A stretch of DNA of 53,106 nucleotides from Deltaproteobacteria bacterium (GTDB lineage Bacteria; Bdellovibrionota; Bacteriovoracia; Bacteriovoracales; Bacteriovoracaceae), in NCBI GenBank assembly GCA_006226755.1, contig SBGE01000192.1, forward strand, positions 1-53,106. The letters are read 5' to 3'. The position numbers were made by a program, and so were the translations under genes. Below the pieces are notes generated by a model. It ran no database searches. It saw nothing but the letters and a program-made list of their open reading frames with translations, and was not told where the DNA came from. Positions within the stretch are counted from its first letter, which is position 1, and each line of letters begins with the position of its first letter. Positions 1 through 9,352 of this stretch are shown one piece after another.

Positions 1-890
1 GATGAATTAATAATACTTCCTCTTTTTAGTAGAAATGAAAGCCTCCTGACTTCACTTTCTACTTCTTGCACTAAAGATTGATCATCTACCAGTAGAATAG
101 CAGAAGAGTCTGGTCCATGCTCCAGTTGGGCGAGAAGATCAGCTGCGATAAAGGTAGGATTAGCTTTTTTATCTGCTATGATAAGAACTTCGCTTGGGCC
201 AGCATCCATATCAGTATCAGCACCTTTTGAGTTATTACGAACAAACGCCTTTGCTCTATCCACATATTGGTTACCAGGTCCAAAAATCTTTTCTACCGCC
301 GGTATAGATTCTGTACCGAAGCCTAGAGCCGCTATACCTTGAGCACCACCTATGCAATAGGCTTCGTTAATTCCGCATAATTTAAAAGCTGCTAACAAAA
401 TAGGATTTACAGAATCCATAGATTTTGCTGGAGTAATAGCGACGATCTCTTTGACACCTGCTATCCTGGCGGGAATAGCAAGCATTAGAACTGTTGAGAC
501 GAGAGGTGCAGTTCCACCTGGAATATAAAGACCTACCCTCTTAAGTGGCTTCCAACTGGTTCCTAGCTCAACTCCCTGTTGATTAATTGTTTTTTCGTTT
601 TTCGGTAACTGAAGCGAATGGAATTTTTCAATGTTATCCTTTGCCATCATCAAGGCATTTAATTCTTCTCTAGAGAGCTTTTCAACGGCGTCAGAAATGA
701 GCTGTTCATCAATTCGAAACTGACTTCCTTGAAAACAATCATATTTTTTGGCGTACTCACTAACTGCAAGATCTCCCCTTTTGAGCACATCTAAACATAT
801 TTTTTCAACAGACTCAGACACTTCAGCTGAATTTAAGGGACGTCTGCAAAAATCTTGAGTATTACTATTTCTTAAATCAAACTTGTTCAT
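1..890 (-). CDS. hisD: Histidinol dehydrogenase, C-terminus cut by window edge
   Basis: Catalyses the last two oxidations of histidine synthesis, L-histidinol to L-histidine, with NAD and zinc in the cytoplasm. The ORF track misses it because the stop lies outside the window, but reading the minus strand from the ATG at 890 gives about 296 open codons. Family motifs are visible: VGLYIPGGTAPLVSTV, CGINEAYCIGGAQGIAAL, KIFGPGNQYVDRAK, DMDAGPSEVLIIAD and LLAQLEHGPDSSA. The ATG overlaps the hisG stop as ATGA, so translation is probably coupled to hisG. The family is usually about 430 residues, so roughly the last third is missing here. The identification is secure. Confidence 0.95.
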   Translation of the reverse strand, partial: MNKFDLRNSNTQDFCRRPLNSAEVSESVEKICLDVLKRGDLAVSEYAKKYDCFQGSQFRIDEQLISDAVEKLSREELNALMMAKDNIEKFHSLQLPKNEKTINQQGVELGTSWKPLKRVGLYIPGGTAPLVSTVLMLAIPARIAGVKEIVAITPAKSMDSVNPILLAAFKLCGINEAYCIGGAQGIAALGFGTESIPAVEKIFGPGNQYVDRAKAFVRNNSKGADTDMDAGPSEVLIIADKKANPTFIAADLLAQLEHGPDSSAILLVDDQSLVQEVESEVRRLSFLLKRGSIINS

Positions 891-1759
891 TCTAACACCT
901 TTTCTATGGGTGTGACCAAAATGGAACTTGCACCACTCGCTTTGAGCTTCTCGATAGTTGACCACATATTTTTGGATTCAATAACACCATGAATAGCCAC
1001 CTTTGTGGCATCTGTGGAAAGTTGAATTATTGAAGGTGCCTCCATTCCTGGTACAAGCTCAACAATTTCATCTATTTTAGAAACAGGAGCATTCATCATG
1101 AGGTAACGAGAATTCTTTGCCTTCAAACTGGACTCTATTCTAAGTTTCAATTTACTAACAGATTTATAGATGAATTCATCAACAGGTGTATTTTTTTGGA
1201 AGAGCACAACTTTCGATTCATATAATGTAGTATATTCAATCAAACCGTGTGCTTTGAGTGTTGAACCTGAAGAAACAATGTCGAAAACGCCATCACAGAT
1301 ATCTAAGATGGGCCCAACTTCAATAGAACCTGAAAGCTTAATAATTTTAACTTCGATACCTCTCTGTGCTAGTTCTCGCTCGAGAATTCGAGGATAACTA
1401 GTAGCAATGACTTTACCGTTAATATCATTAAAACTTTTTGGTAATTTATTTTCAGGGAAAGCCAAAGAGATACGACATTGACCATATGGAAGTGTTGTAA
1501 TCACTTTTATATCATCAGTCTCATAGTATTCATCAAGAATGTTTCTTCCAACAATTCCAAGATCGCACTTATTCATCTGTATGTACTTGGGAATATCTTG
1601 ATTCCTAAGATAAATAAGATCTAAGGGTTCATTAGTTGCCGGCGAAATTAACTTTCTAGATGAGAGTTGAAAGTTAAAACCACAATCAGAGAGTAGCTCA
1701 ATTGATTTCTCAGTTAACCTTCCACTTTTTTGTATAGCTATTTTTAATCTTTTTGACAT
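887..1759 (-). CDS. hisG: ATP phosphoribosyltransferase, long form
   Basis: Catalyses the committed step of histidine synthesis, joining ATP and PRPP, in the cytoplasm. At 290 residues it has the long HisG form: a catalytic part (KIAIQKSGRL, CDLGIVGRNIL, DGVFDIVSSGSTLKAHGL) and a C-terminal ACT-like regulatory domain (MEAPSIIQLS, SILVTPIEKVLE). It should therefore work without HisZ and be inhibited by histidine, as in known long HisG enzymes. The start is supported by the Shine-Dalgarno AAGGAG 6-7 bases upstream. It is the first structural gene after yerC, and a strong palindrome lies just upstream of its ribosome binding site. Its stop overlaps the hisD start by 4 nt. Confidence 0.96.
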   Translation of the reverse strand: MSKRLKIAIQKSGRLTEKSIELLSDCGFNFQLSSRKLISPATNEPLDLIYLRNQDIPKYIQMNKCDLGIVGRNILDEYYETDDIKVITTLPYGQCRISLAFPENKLPKSFNDINGKVIATSYPRILERELAQRGIEVKIIKLSGSIEVGPILDICDGVFDIVSSGSTLKAHGLIEYTTLYESKVVLFQKNTPVDEFIYKSVSKLKLRIESSLKAKNSRYLMMNAPVSKIDEIVELVPGMEAPSIIQLSTDATKVAIHGVIESKNMWSTIEKLKASGASSILVTPIEKVLE

Positions 1760-1776: not shown

Positions 1777-1802
1777 GTTTTAGCGTGCTAACACGCTAAA
1801 AC
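1777..1802. promoter_or_regulatory. Perfect 26-bp palindrome, probable YerC/HisR operator at hisG
   Basis: Two perfect 11-bp arms (GTTTTAGCGTG and its complement) flank a 4-bp centre, CTAA. It lies between yerC and hisG, about 18 bp upstream of the hisG ATG. No T-run follows either arm on either strand, which argues against an intrinsic terminator. Its core has the pattern TAGnnTn-4-nAnnCTA, the same as the palindrome upstream of yerC. TrpR-family repressors bind such palindromes, so YerC itself is the likely ligand (inference). Confidence 0.7.
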
Positions 1803-1810
1803 GCAAGAAG

Positions 1811-1837
1811 AATGTAAAAATAAACCACATATGTTAA
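1811..1837 (-). promoter_or_regulatory. Possible hisG promoter upstream of the palindrome
   Basis: On the minus strand TTAACA (1837-1832) and TACATT (1816-1811) are 15 bp apart, a short but usable sigma-70 spacing. The predicted start near 1804 puts the 26-bp palindrome right after the transcription start, where a bound repressor could block initiation or early elongation. The spacing is not ideal, so this is tentative. Confidence 0.35.
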
Positions 1838-1874
1838 TCAGAGGTTCGCCATCAAAAGTAAGGTACTGTAATTA

Positions 1875-2138
1875 CTAGGGTTTTAAATTAGACAAAGCTA
1901 CTTGATAGCCACTACCAGGGGCACTTAAACAGCGAGCGACTCGGGTGACGGTTGCAGTAGAGACTCCTGTTTTTTCTGATATTTCGCGATAAGACATCCC
2001 CTTATCCAGTAGTTGCACCACATTCCAGCGTTCTTTAAGGGATTCATATTCTTTGGGGGAAAGGAGATCATGAAGAAAATTTTTTAAGTTTTTTTCATCT
2101 TCAAGGGTCAATAATGCTTTCTCAAGGGAATGTTTCAT
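1875..2138 (-). CDS. yerC: TrpR-like regulator of the YerC/YecD family (HisR-type)
   Basis: An 87-residue DNA-binding protein of the TrpR superfamily. The helix-turn-helix reads GMSYREISEKTGVSTATVTR, and the C-terminal tail LSAPGSGYQVAL resembles the family ending GxGGYxLxL. Helices before it (SPKEYESLKERWNVVQLL) match the TrpR core. YerC homologues have been linked to regulation of histidine genes in Gram-positive bacteria, and here the gene stands directly upstream of hisG on the same strand. A second palindrome sits 5 bp upstream of its ATG, suggesting autoregulation. No Shine-Dalgarno is visible before this ATG. Family membership is clear; the histidine role is inferred from context. Confidence 0.85.
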   Translation of the reverse strand: MKHSLEKALLTLEDEKNLKNFLHDLLSPKEYESLKERWNVVQLLDKGMSYREISEKTGVSTATVTRVARCLSAPGSGYQVALSNLKP

Positions 2139-2143
2139 AAAAA

Positions 2144-2161
2144 TAGTCTATCAGTAGACTA
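2144..2161. promoter_or_regulatory. 18-bp palindrome upstream of yerC, probable autoregulatory operator
   Basis: TAGTCTA, four bases, then TAGACTA: a perfect 7-4-7 inverted repeat ending 5 bp before the yerC ATG. It matches the core of the hisG palindrome in arm length, spacing and the outer TAG...CTA bases. On the minus strand TTGTTC, 17 bp, TAGACT could be a promoter whose -10 lies inside the right arm, so binding would shut the promoter. That promoter is weak by sequence. Confidence 0.6.
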
Positions 2162-2340
2162 ATTTATGAACAAGTACCTAAGTCTTGTTATAACGAACAA
2201 CTTGTATTTCAACATCCAACAGGCAATCCTCTTCAAATTCTAGACACTCTTCTAGCTTCCTGTTTTTACACGAACTATTACTGATAATATTATCCTGGCA
2301 ACATTTCTCGAGTGTTAATATATCAATGCCTGGAGGAAAC

Positions 2341-2526: not shown

Positions 2527-2893
2527 AGTATTTTACGATGGAGCATGTGTCTTATGCTACAACGAAATCAATCATTATAAGCAAAAAGATGAATTAGATC
2601 TTTTGGAATTAATCGACATCTCTGCTGAAGATTTCAGAGCTGATTACTATGGACTCGATACGGAAAAAATCAATCTACACATGCACGTTATCGATTCCGA
2701 TGGGAAAATATTCACTGGTATAGATTCATTCATTGAAATTTGGAAGAGAATCCCCCCCTATAATCGACTTGTTCCTTTCTTTAAAAATTGCCTTCTTCGA
2801 ACTGGGTTAGATGTAGGCTACGAAGTTTTTGCTAAGTACATACGCCCACGACTGCCTAAAAGGGACTGTAAAAAAGGAGTTTGCACTGCATGA
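2513..2893 (+). CDS. DCC-family (DUF393) thiol-disulfide oxidoreductase-like protein
   Basis: A 126-residue protein with the family signature FYDGACVLC near the N-terminus, which supplies the DxxCxxC dicysteine, then HMHVIDSDGKIFTGIDSFIEIW and a C-terminal helical part. DCC proteins have a predicted thioredoxin-like fold and are thought to act in thiol redox chemistry; substrates are unknown. The start at ATG 2513 is preferred because the family begins just before KVFYDG; the longer track start adds eight unrelated residues. The stop overlaps the next gene as ATGA. The neighbouring SDR suggests a shared redox role, but nothing shows which one. Confidence 0.8.
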   Translation: MKPLKVFYDGACVLCYNEINHYKQKDELDLLELIDISAEDFRADYYGLDTEKINLHMHVIDSDGKIFTGIDSFIEIWKRIPPYNRLVPFFKNCLLRTGLDVGYEVFAKYIRPRLPKRDCKKGVCTA

Positions 2894-3615
2894 GTCTAAG
2901 TCACATAAACCGAGTATTAATTCTTGGAGATGGTGGGATTGGATATGCTCTAGCTGAAGAGATTAAGTCAAGAAACCCTAAGGCCCAAATACATATTTCC
3001 TCGAGAAGGATAAAGAAAAGCTCTTCTAAATTTAATTTACATTTTTTAGACCCATTGAAGGAGTCTTCATGGCAAAAATTTATTTTGGAATTGCGAGAGC
3101 AAACTACGACTCTTGACCTGGTTATTTCGACCTACGGTGTCTTACATAATCTTGAGGGCATTAAGCCTGAAAAGTCCCTACGAGAGATGGACATTGATAA
3201 AATGATCGAAGTATTTTCCATAAATGCTTTCACTGCTCCACTTGTAGCTAAAAATCTAGAGCCTTTTCTTAATTCTAGTAAAGAATCTCATCTCATTTTT
3301 TTGTCTGCGAAGGTAGGTAGCTTGCAGGATAACAGAATGGGAGGCTGGTATAGTTATAGGGCGTCGAAAGCCGCTCTAAACATGTTTATGAAGAATATCT
3401 CCATAGAATTTTCTAGAAAGAATCTTAAAACTAAGGTTTTTTCAATACATCCTGGAACAACAGTGACCAAACTTTCCGAACCATTCCTAAAGAGCTCTAA
3501 TCTCAAAATTTGGTCATCTGAAGAAACCGCAAAGCATATTTTAAACACAATCTATTCTACAAACTCAAGTACAGGTAGTTTTCTTAACTGGAACGGAGAA
3601 ATTCTTCCTTGGTAA
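2890..3615 (+). CDS. Short-chain dehydrogenase/reductase (C-factor-like)
   Basis: A 241-residue Rossmann-fold NAD(P)-dependent oxidoreductase. The cofactor loop is ILGDGGIGYALAEEI, a variant of TGxxxGxG, followed by ISTYGVLHN in place of NNAG, and the catalytic YRASK with the preceding serine in LSAKVGS. The start is ATG 2890, with AAAGGAG upstream and ATGA overlap with the DCC gene; the TTG at 2881 in the track is less likely. Length and motifs resemble the cell-cell signalling C-factor/CsgA-like SDR group, but the substrate cannot be predicted. It is the last gene of the operon and converges on cvfB. Confidence 0.82.
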   Translation: MSLSHINRVLILGDGGIGYALAEEIKSRNPKAQIHISSRRIKKSSSKFNLHFLDPLKESSWQKFILELREQTTTLDLVISTYGVLHNLEGIKPEKSLREMDIDKMIEVFSINAFTAPLVAKNLEPFLNSSKESHLIFLSAKVGSLQDNRMGGWYSYRASKAALNMFMKNISIEFSRKNLKTKVFSIHPGTTVTKLSEPFLKSSNLKIWSSEETAKHILNTIYSTNSSTGSFLNWNGEILPW

Positions 3616-3660
3616 TCTAGCGACCATTATTCGACAATGCTAACAATTAAACTTTGATAA

Positions 3661-4527
3661 TTAATTGATTAGCTTGATTCCCTTGTTCGGCCCTTTAAGA
3701 ATCTCGATTTTCTTATCCTTAAAAAGCATTCCAATAGCAGATTTGAAGGTATTTTTGCTCATAGAAAGAGCCCGTTTAATTTCTTCTGGTGAACTTTTAT
3801 CATGCAGGTCACATTGCCCACCACTGTCTTTCAAATATTGAAGAACTTTTTCTTTAGAATCCTCAAGGTTTTGGACTCCATGGGCCTGAAGAGCGACATC
3901 GACAAGACCATCTGTTCGTATCTTCTTCACAATCCCTTCATATGGTCTATTCAAAAGAATCTCTTGGAAGATCTCATTGTTGTAGATCATTCCAACAAAT
4001 CTCTTATTGATAACAACTTTGTACCCTAGATCAGTGATCTTCACTGGTACAACTGTTACTTTGTCTTTTTCTTCAAAATCAAAAACCGAACTTTCAATAT
4101 ATTTGCCGAGTTTGGTTGTTCCATAGACTCGATCTGTCCCTTCTTCAAGACAGACTCTGACCAGATAACGTTCGTGTTTTTTGACTTTTACTTTCTGTTC
4201 ATTACCAGGAACCAAAAGATCTTTATCTATTCCCCAATCAAAGAAAGCACCAAATTCTTCTACTGCAACGACACGCATATCTGCGTACTCTCCAACTTGA
4301 GCAAAGGGAGTCTCTGTCGTCGCGATTAATTTATCTTTAGTATCCACATAAACGAAAACCGTGATTTCCTGCCCTCTTCTAACCTTCAAATGGGTCAATG
4401 ATGGAGGCAAAAAGACTTCCTCTTCTTCATCATAATCGTCGATATCGACATCCGTAGAAACTAAATAGAAACCATGTTTGGTTTCTCTGGCGACGATCAT
4501 TCTATTTATTTTGCCTATTTCAATCAC
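3661..4527 (-). CDS. cvfB: S1-like RNA-binding protein, CvfB/YitL family
   Basis: A 288-residue protein built of S1-type OB folds and a C-terminal winged helix, typical of CvfB, an RNA-binding regulator of virulence and mRNA turnover in Firmicutes. Visible elements are MIVARETKHGFYL, EVFLPPSLTHLKVRRGQ, EEFGAFFDWGIDKDLLVP, GYKVVINKRFVGMIYNNE, RPYEGIVKKIRTDGLVDV and the C-terminal SPEEIKRALSMSKNTFKSAI. The track starts at 4584, but those 19 residues are not family-like and have no ribosome binding site. The GTG at 4527, preceded by GGAAAT and followed by IEIGKIN, matches usual family starts. It lies about 100 nt downstream of the tRNA on the same strand and may share its transcript. Confidence 0.82.
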   Translation of the reverse strand: MIEIGKINRMIVARETKHGFYLVSTDVDIDDYDEEEEVFLPPSLTHLKVRRGQEITVFVYVDTKDKLIATTETPFAQVGEYADMRVVAVEEFGAFFDWGIDKDLLVPGNEQKVKVKKHERYLVRVCLEEGTDRVYGTTKLGKYIESSVFDFEEKDKVTVVPVKITDLGYKVVINKRFVGMIYNNEIFQEILLNRPYEGIVKKIRTDGLVDVALQAHGVQNLEDSKEKVLQYLKDSGGQCDLHDKSSPEEIKRALSMSKNTFKSAIGMLFKDKKIEILKGPNKGIKLIN

Positions 4528-4628
4528 ATTATTTCCGTTTTTGAAGATGAAGATGACTTGTACCTCAATGACGCTACAATTCATAGAGATCGACTGTATA
4601 AATGTATGGGGGCTTATTAAGATTTAAA

Positions 4629-4713
4629 TGGTGCTCGGGACTGGACTTGAACCAGCACGTCTTGCGACACACGCCCCTCAAGCGTGCGTGTCTACCAATT
4701 CCACCACCCGAGC
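4629..4713 (-). tRNA. tRNA-Leu, anticodon GAG, CCA encoded
   Basis: The minus strand folds as a class II tRNA: acceptor GCTCGGG pairing with CCCGAGC, D-arm with GGTAGAC, anticodon stem GCACGC/GCGTGT with loop TTGAGGG giving GAG, a long variable arm (TGTCGCAAGACG) and T-loop TTCAAGT. The discriminator base is A, and the CCA end is encoded at 4631-4629. It reads CUC/CUU leucine codons. It has its own promoter. Confidence 0.96.
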
Positions 4714-5356: not shown

Positions 5357-5581
5357 ATGAGCGAAAAAGTGAATTGCCTCAAATGTAAGTACTATCACAA
5401 TACCTGGGACCCCAAGGCCCCACGTGGGTGCTCGCTGTTTCGCTTCAAAGGCCCACAATTCCCTTCTCTGGCAGTTAAAAGAGAGACTGGAGATGAATGT
5501 AAGGGATTCGTGCCAAACGGCAGAGAGGCAAAAAAACAGGCCAAGGACAAGCTAGATTTGAACCGAGACGACCTCTGGTAA
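5357..5581 (+). CDS. Small four-cysteine protein, possible zinc ribbon
   Basis: A 74-residue protein with cysteines in the pattern CLKCKYY...RGCSLF...DECKGF. Two pairs about 30 residues apart could bind one zinc or Fe-S site. The C-terminal third is charged (REAKKQAKDKLDLNRDDLW). The composition and cysteine layout look like a real gene rather than a shadow of mnmA, with which it overlaps tail to tail by 30 nt. The ribosome binding site is weak (GAG six bases before ATG). Function unknown. Similar small CxxC proteins occur as uncharacterised proteins in proteobacteria. Confidence 0.65.
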   Translation: MSEKVNCLKCKYYHNTWDPKAPRGCSLFRFKGPQFPSLAVKRETGDECKGFVPNGREAKKQAKDKLDLNRDDLW

Positions 5582-6721
5582 ATCAAGACCTCTTTCATAA
5601 TAAGTAGCTCCACCTCTTTCAATCATCCCCCCACCCAGACAAATACTGTCTTTATAAAAGACAACAGATTGTCTCAAAGTGACGGCCCTTTGAGGTTCGT
5701 CAAATACGACATGGGCGATACCATTTTCGATGGATTGAATAGTGCAGTCCTGGTCTTTTTGACGGTAGCGAATTTTGGCCTTGCATCTAAAGGGGGTTTT
5801 AAAAGGGACTACTTCTTCCACCCAAGATAGCTCATTGGCCCAAAGTTCATCTCTATATAGAGCTGGATGTTTCTCACCTCGCTCAACATAAACAGTATTG
5901 GTTTCCACATCTTTATCAACTACAAACCACGGCTCTCCTGGTCCACCCAGACCTAAACCTTTCCGTTGGCCGATGGTATAAAAAGAAACACCAGAATGTT
6001 CACCAACAACCTCGCCATTCAAAAGCTTAAATGGTCCATTTTCAAATGTGATGTAATTTGAGAGGAAGTTTTTGAAATTTCTCTCCCCGATAAAGCAGAT
6101 TCCGGTGGAGTCTTTTTTATTTTTGGTAGAGAGGTCATATTTTTCGGCCAGTCGTCTGACTTCCGCCTTAGGAAGATGTCCAATTGGAAAGAGCACTTTC
6201 TTTAAAATTTCACTTTTGTTGGTATAGAGAAAATAGGTTTGATCTTTACCGGGATCATTTCCTTTGACCAATTGATGGACACCATTCAAAAGCATATTCT
6301 GACAATAGTGACCTGTGGCCAGGTAATCTGCTCCAAGCTCCAATGCCTTATCCATGAAAACTTTGAATTTAATCTCTCTATTGCACAGAATATCTGGATT
6401 TGGAGTGTGTCCGGCCTTATATTCTTCAACAAAATGTTTGAAGACGTTTTCACGATATTCCTCAACAAACTCTACTGAATAATAAGGAATATCGAGTTTC
6501 TCACAAACCTTGACCACATCTTCATATTCTTTGGAGGCCTGACAAACGCCATTTTCATCTGTTTCTTCCCAGTTCTTCATGAACATGCCGATGACGTTGT
6601 AACCTTGTTCTTTGAGAACTGCTGCAGTGACAGAGGAATCCACCCCACCAGACATGCCGACGATGACAGTGGCCCCGACTTCTGGGGCAAAGGGAATAAG
6701 TGAATCCGACCATTTACTCAT
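5552..6721 (-). CDS. mnmA: tRNA-specific 2-thiouridylase
   Basis: Adds sulfur to U34 of tRNA-Lys, -Glu and -Gln, after adenylating the base with ATP. The 389-residue protein carries the intact PP-loop SGGVDSS (about 24-30), the catalytic cysteine in NPDILCNREIKF (C113), the tRNA/ATP motif GNDPGKDQTYFLY, the persulfide cysteine in STGICFIGE (C209) and the PRC-barrel part beginning FYTIGQRKGLGLGG. It ends normally with SICLGGGMIE plus a short tail. This is the functional copy; a divergent paralogue lies two genes upstream at 7888-9219. Its 3' end overlaps the convergent cysteine-protein gene by 30 nt. AAGG precedes the ATG. Confidence 0.95.
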   Translation of the reverse strand: MSKWSDSLIPFAPEVGATVIVGMSGGVDSSVTAAVLKEQGYNVIGMFMKNWEETDENGVCQASKEYEDVVKVCEKLDIPYYSVEFVEEYRENVFKHFVEEYKAGHTPNPDILCNREIKFKVFMDKALELGADYLATGHYCQNMLLNGVHQLVKGNDPGKDQTYFLYTNKSEILKKVLFPIGHLPKAEVRRLAEKYDLSTKNKKDSTGICFIGERNFKNFLSNYITFENGPFKLLNGEVVGEHSGVSFYTIGQRKGLGLGGPGEPWFVVDKDVETNTVYVERGEKHPALYRDELWANELSWVEEVVPFKTPFRCKAKIRYRQKDQDCTIQSIENGIAHVVFDEPQRAVTLRQSVVFYKDSICLGGGMIERGGATYYERGLDLPEVVSVQI

Positions 6722-6767: not shown

Positions 6768-7913
6768 TTATCTTATCAGGTCGTAATTCCAGCCCAAGAC
6801 ACCGCTCGTAAGCGATCTAAATGCGTAATAAAAGCTCTTCTGATTAACGGTTTCAGCAAAATCATTGGAAGTGTGATGTTTTTCCGAATTATAGTCATTT
6901 TCAAGGTCTTGAGTAAAGGCCACAGCTGTAAGACCTTTTCTCCAAAAATTAGAGTGATCAGAATTGTCATAACTATTGGCCATAATCTCCCATCTCATGG
7001 CCGAACCACCTTGCTTGCCACCTTGGATAATGGTCTCAGCGATTTTTTTATCTTTGGCATGTCCAATGTCATTCGTTTTTCGAATATAGGCCTTGTAATT
7101 TCGAAGCTTCTTTGTCTTATCAAACAACTTAGTATCGTTTCCAAGCATCTCAACATTGAGGTAGGCCGCCATATTTTTCTTGAGATCGGCCTGGTTTTTT
7201 TCGACATAGGCCCGGCTTCCGAGGAAGGCCAATTCTTGAAAATCAAAGAAGATGATTCTAACGGTTTTGGCCAAATTCAACTCACTGAGAATTTCAATCA
7301 TCGACAGAAGCGTTGCCACTCCAGTTCCATTATCATCGGCACCAGGCATGTCGGCACGCGGATCAACTTGGAAGGTTTTAGAGTTGTAAACAATCGTATC
7401 GTAATGAGCTCCTAGGACAATCACTTCATCAGGAGTAAGAAGCCCTTTCTTTTCCCAAATAATATTTTTACCTTTAAGACCTTTGAAACTTTTCAAAGTC
7501 GTGAGTACAGAATCAGTGAAGCCTTTCCATTTTTTATATTCAGGAGAATTTGCCTGATAGCGTGAAGCGATTTTGGTTTGAAAATCGTTATTGTAGAACT
7601 CAATGGCATAATCAATATCAGGATCAAACTCTTCAACAGTCAGGACCGACTCTCCAGAAGTGTCCATTTGTTTGATTTTTGAAACTATCCAATCAGCACT
7701 TTTCTTGTGTCCATCAGTTCCTGGAAGTCTTGAAGGACGACAACAAGAAACAAAATCACGCAGGTTTTTCATCACCTTCTTCTGATTGTATCTGGAGACA
7801 ATATTTGAAATAGTACTCATCGACTTTGGAGTCTTTTCATATTTTTTGACTACAAAGGCATTGGCACATGGATTGAACAATATAAAACTAAAAATGAAAA
7901 TCAGGAAGCGCAT
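6768..7913 (-). CDS. Secreted M28-family metallopeptidase homologue with Glu-to-Gln change
   Basis: A 381-residue protein with a signal peptide (MRFLIFIFSFILFNPCANA) and an M28 zinc aminopeptidase-like domain. Visible metal-site elements are H170 in LGAHYDT, D194 in PGADDNGTG, E227 in FFDFQELAFLGS, E255 in YLNVEMLGND and H320 in DNSDHSNFW. The usual pair of glutamates is Q226-E227 here, so the general base of characterised M28 enzymes is replaced by Gln. It may be inactive, or may work as a binding protein or altered enzyme. The track's earlier start adds 40 basic residues encoded inside the upstream gene; ATG 7913, which opens the signal peptide, is preferred. It overlaps the MnmA-like gene by 26 nt. 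Confidence 0.82.
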   Translation of the reverse strand: MRFLIFIFSFILFNPCANAFVVKKYEKTPKSMSTISNIVSRYNQKKVMKNLRDFVSCCRPSRLPGTDGHKKSADWIVSKIKQMDTSGESVLTVEEFDPDIDYAIEFYNNDFQTKIASRYQANSPEYKKWKGFTDSVLTTLKSFKGLKGKNIIWEKKGLLTPDEVIVLGAHYDTIVYNSKTFQVDPRADMPGADDNGTGVATLLSMIEILSELNLAKTVRIIFFDFQELAFLGSRAYVEKNQADLKKNMAAYLNVEMLGNDTKLFDKTKKLRNYKAYIRKTNDIGHAKDKKIAETIIQGGKQGGSAMRWEIMANSYDNSDHSNFWRKGLTAVAFTQDLENDYNSEKHHTSNDFAETVNQKSFYYAFRSLTSGVLGWNYDLIR

Positions 7914-9219
7914 TAGCTTTCTTTTCCTTTTCTCTTTTCTTGGCTTCTTCCTCATCCATTGGAACAATCTCAGGTGGAACATAAGTTTTGATTTTATTAT
8001 TCTCAAGAACTCCAGCAATCGATATAAATCCACTCATGATAAGCTTCCCCCCAATTGATTGCTTACTGTAGAGAGCAACGACCAGTCCTTTTGACAACAT
8101 TCCTGGCTGGGCTTTTTTGAAGCGCAATATAGCTGATCTGCTATTTTTAATAAAGACCGTACAGGCCAACAATTCTTTTGAGCTACCAATCTTGGCAAAC
8201 AACTCTATCGGTTTGGTTATATCCATTTCATTATCATATCGAATTCTCTGAAGCTGACAGTGTGTGAAGGCCAGCTCTGCTGAGTGAGCGAGATAAACTG
8301 TTCCACTTGAAGGAGCAATGTCGATGATATGAAAATCCGGATCAATATTTTTTTCACTGGCAAGTTTCAATTTGTTTTGACCGAGATAAAAATTATGGAT
8401 GCCTTTATGATCTGCTAAGATTGTATCTTCAGCTGCAATTGATAGATGTCCAGGCTTGAACAAACTTTCAGAGGCACAATACTCAACTAACAATGGTACA
8501 CGAGGGTCTGAGCCGTAACACATCTTGGTTCCTTCAGAAGAAGGCTGTGTTTTTATATCAATCAGCTTCAAAAGTTTTTCAACTTCTTCCACTCTCATTT
8601 CAGCAAGAGGGAGCATCAGCTTTTGAAGTATGTCTTGATTGACTCGAGAAAGTAGATAACTCTGATCATTTTCTGGATCGTTCCCCTTGGCAATATTAAA
8701 AAAACCAGTCGTTTGATTCTTGATCACTTTTGAATAGTGACCAGTAGCTATGAAATCTGCACCAAGAGATTCTGCTTTCTCCATCAAAACAGAAAGCTTT
8801 ACCTGATTACAGTTTATACAAGATTGAAAAGAACTCCCACCCAGACGACAACTGATCACATTATCCATTACTTCTGATTTAAAAATCTCTTGTGCCTTCA
8901 CTCCGTAAAAGGGAATGTCCAAGTGATCACAAACATCTTTTACTTTTTCAATATCAGAAATATGACAACGACTATAGAGAGGCTCTTTTGGCATTTTTCT
9001 TTCAGCATAGGAATCATTCAAGTTAAATTCTTCGGCCTCAATCGCTTTTTTTTCAGCTGCTTTTTGTGCTTTTATTGGAAGAAGTTCATCATTGAGAAGT
9101 AAGGCAAGGCCAATACAATCGTAGCCTTGTTTTTTTAATAAATAAGCAGCTACCGTGGAGTCTCTTCTCCCGGTCATACCAATAACAACTTTGATATTTT
9201 TCTTTTTACTCGATTCCAT
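7888..9219 (-). CDS. Divergent MnmA-like protein with altered PP-loop
   Basis: A 443-residue paralogue of the tRNA 2-thiouridylase. The fold markers are present: two cysteines at the MnmA positions (CINCNQVKLS, C137; TKMCYGSDPR, C234), ATGHYSKV and GNDPENDQSYLL, and a C-terminal barrel. The ATP loop is TGRRDST instead of SGGVDSS, losing both glycines and the valine. There is an extra charged segment (about residues 44-85) after the first strand and a basic/acidic C-terminal tail (DEEEAKKREKEKK). ATG 9219 is chosen because it opens just before the first strand; the track start adds 17 residues. It overlaps the M28 gene. It may thiolate another substrate, use a different cofactor, or have become a binding protein. 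Confidence 0.8.
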   Translation of the reverse strand: MESSKKKNIKVVIGMTGRRDSTVAAYLLKKQGYDCIGLALLLNDELLPIKAQKAAEKKAIEAEEFNLNDSYAERKMPKEPLYSRCHISDIEKVKDVCDHLDIPFYGVKAQEIFKSEVMDNVISCRLGGSSFQSCINCNQVKLSVLMEKAESLGADFIATGHYSKVIKNQTTGFFNIAKGNDPENDQSYLLSRVNQDILQKLMLPLAEMRVEEVEKLLKLIDIKTQPSSEGTKMCYGSDPRVPLLVEYCASESLFKPGHLSIAAEDTILADHKGIHNFYLGQNKLKLASEKNIDPDFHIIDIAPSSGTVYLAHSAELAFTHCQLQRIRYDNEMDITKPIELFAKIGSSKELLACTVFIKNSRSAILRFKKAQPGMLSKGLVVALYSKQSIGGKLIMSGFISIAGVLENNKIKTYVPPEIVPMDEEEAKKREKEKKANALPDFHF

Positions 9220-9352
9220 AATCTCAAGTTCTATTATACATGGTTTAACTGCCCGAAAAAACAAGGGCAAATAGGTATTCCATCTCTGACACAGAAGCTC
9301 GGTTATAGGATAAATCTTTTAAATTAAAGAGGAGTCTACCGATAAGGTAACA

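Follow-up and report, generated by a model that had tools for sequence, protein, structure and literature searches.

At the start of the window (the whole 53,106-nucleotide stretch analyzed here), yerC, hisG and hisD follow one another in this order on the minus strand, with a 115-bp gap between the first two, and yerC and hisG each have a palindrome upstream. This arrangement raises the question of whether the yerC product regulates the histidine genes, its own gene, or both. A first-pass annotation had noted the two palindromes, which are indeed present at 1777-1802 and 2144-2161, and had proposed that YerC acts on each of them. We favor a model, to which we assign a probability of roughly 0.88, in which a HisR repressor shuts off hisG-hisD through the 1777-1802 palindrome, and yerC is transcribed from its own promoter with little or no control by HisR. 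Feature coordinates are collected in Table 1.

Table 1. Features of the yerC-hisG-hisD locus, in window coordinates
Feature	Position	Strand	Basis or remark
hisD, histidinol dehydrogenase, truncated by contig edge	1..890	-	TIGR00069 315.6 bits, above cut-off
hisG, ATP phosphoribosyltransferase (long form)	887..1759	-	TIGR00070 160.8 bits and TIGR03455 84.2 bits, both above cut-off
Predicted HisR operator of hisG-hisD, 26-bp palindrome	1777..1802	.	Held-out motif score; conservation in relative
First 18-bp HisR site GTTTTAGCGTGCTAACAC, predicted	1777..1794	.	0 mismatches to GTNTTANCRYGNTAANAC, sole such place in genome
Second 18-bp HisR site GTGCTAACACGCTAAAAC, predicted, shifted 8 bp	1785..1802	.	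1 mismatch; 8-bp phase enriched among operators
Possible hisG promoter TTGCGT-18-TAAAAC, overlaps operator	1777..1806	-	Weak, 7/12 consensus
yerC / hisR, 87-aa TrpR-family repressor	1875..2138	-	TIGR02531, Pfam Trp_repressor, structure neighbors
7-4-7 palindrome upstream of yerC, unsupported as HisR site	2144..2161	.	-2.9 bits; broken in relative
Possible yerC promoter TTGTTC-17-TAGACT, overlaps 2144-2161 palindrome	2145..2173	-	Start codon about 7 bases downstream

YerC as a HisR protein and its linkage to hisG

YerC belongs to HisR, a repressor of the TrpR family, and the earlier description of it as TrpR-like is borne out by several lines of evidence: 1) a score of 64.9 bits against the YerC/YecD model TIGR02531, which passes the curated cut-off of 42.2; 2) a Pfam Trp_repressor match of 88.6 bits; 3) TrpR-like proteins (3frw, 3g1c and 3kor) as the closest solved structures; and 4) an alignment in which the HisR recognition helix (Ala-Thr...Arg, with Tyr replacing Arg69 of TrpR) is kept as SYREISEKTGVSTATVTRVAR, and in which Y50, R51, S60, T63 and R66 are invariant across 19 sequences. 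Against the TrpR equivalog model TIGR01321 the protein reaches 43.7 bits, under the cut-off of 67.25, and an identity as the tryptophan repressor itself was rejected on this score.

The hisG product is the first enzyme of histidine synthesis. The contig ends within hisD; in a same-genus relative (G001, matching the Bacteriovoracaceae MAG JAGSHI010000142.1) hisD is followed by hisC, hisB, hisH and hisA/F family matches, which make up the rest of the operon. Elsewhere in the window, also on the minus strand, are a CvfB-like S1 domain/winged helix protein (3661-4584), a tRNA-Leu with anticodon GAG (4629-4713) and, close to a normal MnmA (5552-6721), a second MnmA-like protein (7888-9270) that by Pfam has the first domain only and that carries GMTGRRDSTVAA in its PP-loop, versus GMSGGVDSSVTA in the normal copy.

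The pairing of yerC with hisG extends across the phylum. Among 369 genomes, yerC and hisG each score over cut-off in 13 and occur together in 10, leaving three genomes with yerC only and three with hisG only (Fisher p = 7e-15, a value that ignores the relatedness of the genomes). Wherever both are found, yerC lies immediately upstream of hisG (10/10). In 7 of the 8 that belong to other genera, yerC and hisG overlap or have no more than 3 bp between them; within this genus the spacing is 114-115 bp. A third genome of the genus has neither gene.

The palindrome upstream of hisG

Within the yerC-hisG gap, the sequence GTTTTAGCGTG-CTAA-CACGCTAAAAC consists of a CTAA spacer flanked by two perfect arms of 11 bp each. 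The first-pass term "perfect 26-bp palindrome" holds for the arms and is slightly loose for the whole, in which 12 of 13 pairs match. Chance does not account for this 11-4-11 palindrome, which is expected 0.05 times per shuffled window; an 11-bp arm recurs at a single further place in the window. Of the 26 bases, the same-genus relative keeps 25; for the surrounding intergenic DNA the figure is 52 of 72. With the locus present in two genomes of the genus, this conservation represents one comparison.

A 26-bp palindromic motif, with a core of approximately tGTTTTAgCryGcTAAAACa, was learned de novo from 13 genomes of other genera, using the 110 bp that precede yerC, with a log-likelihood of 169 versus 40-51 in 12 shuffled sets. 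When each locus was left out in turn, the best-scoring place fell just upstream of yerC in all 13. Scored as held-out sequence, the window yields sites of 28.4 bits at 1773-1798 and 29.0 bits at 1781-1806, the third-ranked place in the 53 kb reaching 3.7 bits, and the held-out relative yields sites of 27.6 and 30.4 bits. The motif scan covered the window and the retrieved loci; the whole genome was searched with the operator pattern, mismatches allowed. In the central register this search uncovered no further copy at up to 2 mismatches; the 18-bp register gave further places only at 2 mismatches, fewer than with a reversed-pattern control. The genome thus holds a single strong site by pattern search, consistent with the local circuit on hisG that had been proposed. 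The 1777-1802 palindrome is very probably the DNA switch on which the neighboring yerC/hisR repressor acts. The possible hisG promoter that overlaps it has hexamers at the same positions in the relative (TTGTGT-18-TAAAAC), and sigma-70-like promoters such as TTGACA-17-TAATAT and TTGACG-17-TAAAAC overlap the operator in other relatives.

The motif suggests that the binding unit is an 18-bp palindrome, of which the 26-bp palindrome contains two, offset by 8 bp. An extra half-site at exactly this distance is strongly over-represented (z = 9.8) across 16 operators, on which the motif was partly trained. The 7-4-7 register TAGCGTG-CTAA-CACGCTA, previously taken as the binding unit, is the overlap of the two tandem sites.

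The palindrome upstream of yerC and competing readings

Five bases ahead of the yerC start codon stands TAGTCTA-TCAG-TAGACTA, which shares the form TAGnnTn...nAnnCTA with the central part of the hisG palindrome. The match is real, but it was noticed post hoc and fails the comparative test. While TAGNNTNNNNNNANNCTA occurs at 25 places genome-wide and forms a perfect 7-4-7 palindrome only at these two, perfect 7-4-7 palindromes of any sequence are common in the window (10, versus a mean of 6 in shuffles), so that the one at 2144-2161 is unremarkable by itself. Of the two palindromes, the one before hisG matches the motif learned upstream of yerC in the 13 other genomes and is conserved in the same-genus relative, but the one before yerC does neither.

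That both palindromes are HisR operators, with HisR repressing hisG-hisD and itself, is therefore unlikely, even though this arrangement would not be out of place: HisR autoregulation is common elsewhere (PMC9413887), a site before hisR being optional in the family and present in about half of genomes; the operator lies upstream of hisR in relatives; and the yerC palindrome, which shares bases with the likely promoter of that gene, ranks 64th by motif score among 53,081 places in the window. Its motif score, however, is -2.9 bits versus 29 for the hisG site, and it is without the GT...AC outer bases. The relative reads GAGACTACTGATAAACTA at this position, three changes in 18 bases, each of which breaks a pair without compensation, so that 3 of 7 pairs are lost and the best register tested there scores -10.9. 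No strong motif match was found upstream of yerC in either of the two genomes of the genus. The low score, the lost pairs and the overlap with a likely promoter leave autoregulation of yerC through 2144-2161, as initially proposed, unsupported; the resemblance between the two palindromes is probably coincidence, or the second is at best a weak HisR site. The bases that are kept would fit a yerC promoter: the relative has the promoter-like hexamers TTGTTC-17-TAAACT, and identity is 17/19 at 2162-2180 compared to 54/120 further upstream. With the start codon so near this promoter, the yerC mRNA is likely leaderless.

A second alternative, which we consider very improbable, is that the hisG palindrome works as RNA, in a leader hairpin serving as terminator, attenuator or stabilizer, and not as a protein-binding site. 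An 11-bp hairpin of -15.4 kcal/mol could indeed form immediately ahead of the ribosome-binding site, and the sole change in the relative preserves pairing as G-U; yet no terminator-like T run is found at the palindrome, an Rfam search gave no match, and several operators in relatives retain the DNA half-sites without a comparable hairpin (-3.2, -4.1 and -5.2 kcal/mol in G106, G264 and G242) and overlie promoter-like hexamers. Least probable of all is binding of the operator by some other regulator, with yerC an incidental neighbor, as the motif follows yerC even to loci without hisG (G003, G222 and G247), and hisG loci that lack a yerC over cut-off do not have it (G120, G140 and G362; no site above 4.7 bits).

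The three yerC loci without hisG have neighborhoods of their own. In G003 (L046:10963-11821), a family relative whose genome is 75% complete and in which hisG was undetected, a strong operator and yerC are followed by a sodium:solute symporter gene, possibly for a HisR-controlled histidine transporter. In G222 (L039:5701-6563) and G247 (L041:6507-7566), yerC and a strong operator stand beside genes lacking a Pfam match. A yerC of Puniceicoccales (L031:1863-1896 and 2705-4503) likewise has a strong operator and is followed by an apparent ABC-type transporter ATPase.

A predicted HisR circuit and its setting

In the favored model of HisR repression at 1777-1802, histidine-bound HisR dimers, probably two in tandem 8 bp apart, would occupy the 26-bp operator and cover the hisG promoter, turning off hisG-hisD together with, if the relative is a guide, the downstream genes hisC, hisB, hisH and hisA. 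A drop in histidine would release the repressor and allow transcription of the operon. The effector could also be a related metabolite instead of histidine. The yerC gene would be read from its own upstream promoter, with HisR control absent or weak.

HisR (YerC) has been described as a histidine-responsive repressor of the TrpR family by Ashniev et al. 2022 (PMC9413887), who report it in Firmicutes, Actinobacteria, Synergistetes and 62 alpha/gamma-proteobacterial genomes and who measured histidine-stimulated DNA binding for one protein, R. gnavus HisR. The present locus has the protein family, target pathway and palindromic operator in common with these systems, and hisR stands first in the his operon, the position it has in most Proteobacteria. 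The core resembles the proteobacterial motif TGTAnTArnnnnyTnTTACA (PMC9413887) with a consensus of its own. The locus differs in the tandem 8-bp-phased copies and, in this genus, in an operator placed between hisR and hisG, elsewhere found upstream of hisR; these are the small new points. The text of PMC9413887 does not contain "Bdellovibri", the phylum not being covered there, and a literature search on HisR in this phylum found no paper. The first-pass annotation rightly saw a new setting, at the level of the phylum, but its statement that such regulation is mainly Gram-positive overlooked the proteobacterial genomes. Compared to E. coli TrpR, the fold family and palindromic operators of about 20 bp are shared; the TrpR model score, the pathway and presumably the ligand are different. 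On synthetic operators, TrpR dimers are known to sit in tandem (PMC8745587).

Tentatively, and at somewhat less than even odds, we propose that HisR of this phylum works through tandem operators, each occupied by two or three dimers at 8-bp spacing, and that in this genus the operator has come to lie downstream of hisR, so that hisR escapes its own feedback and control of the his operon is retained. This would be a clear example of operator position leaving a regulator gene outside its own feedback. The recovered sequences form a ready operator collection for binding tests. With this locus a known kind of control, histidine repression by HisR, would extend to a phylum best known for its bacterial predators. 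In most genomes of the phylum no hisG passes the cut-off, and the few genomes having the histidine pathway mostly carry its repressor alongside.
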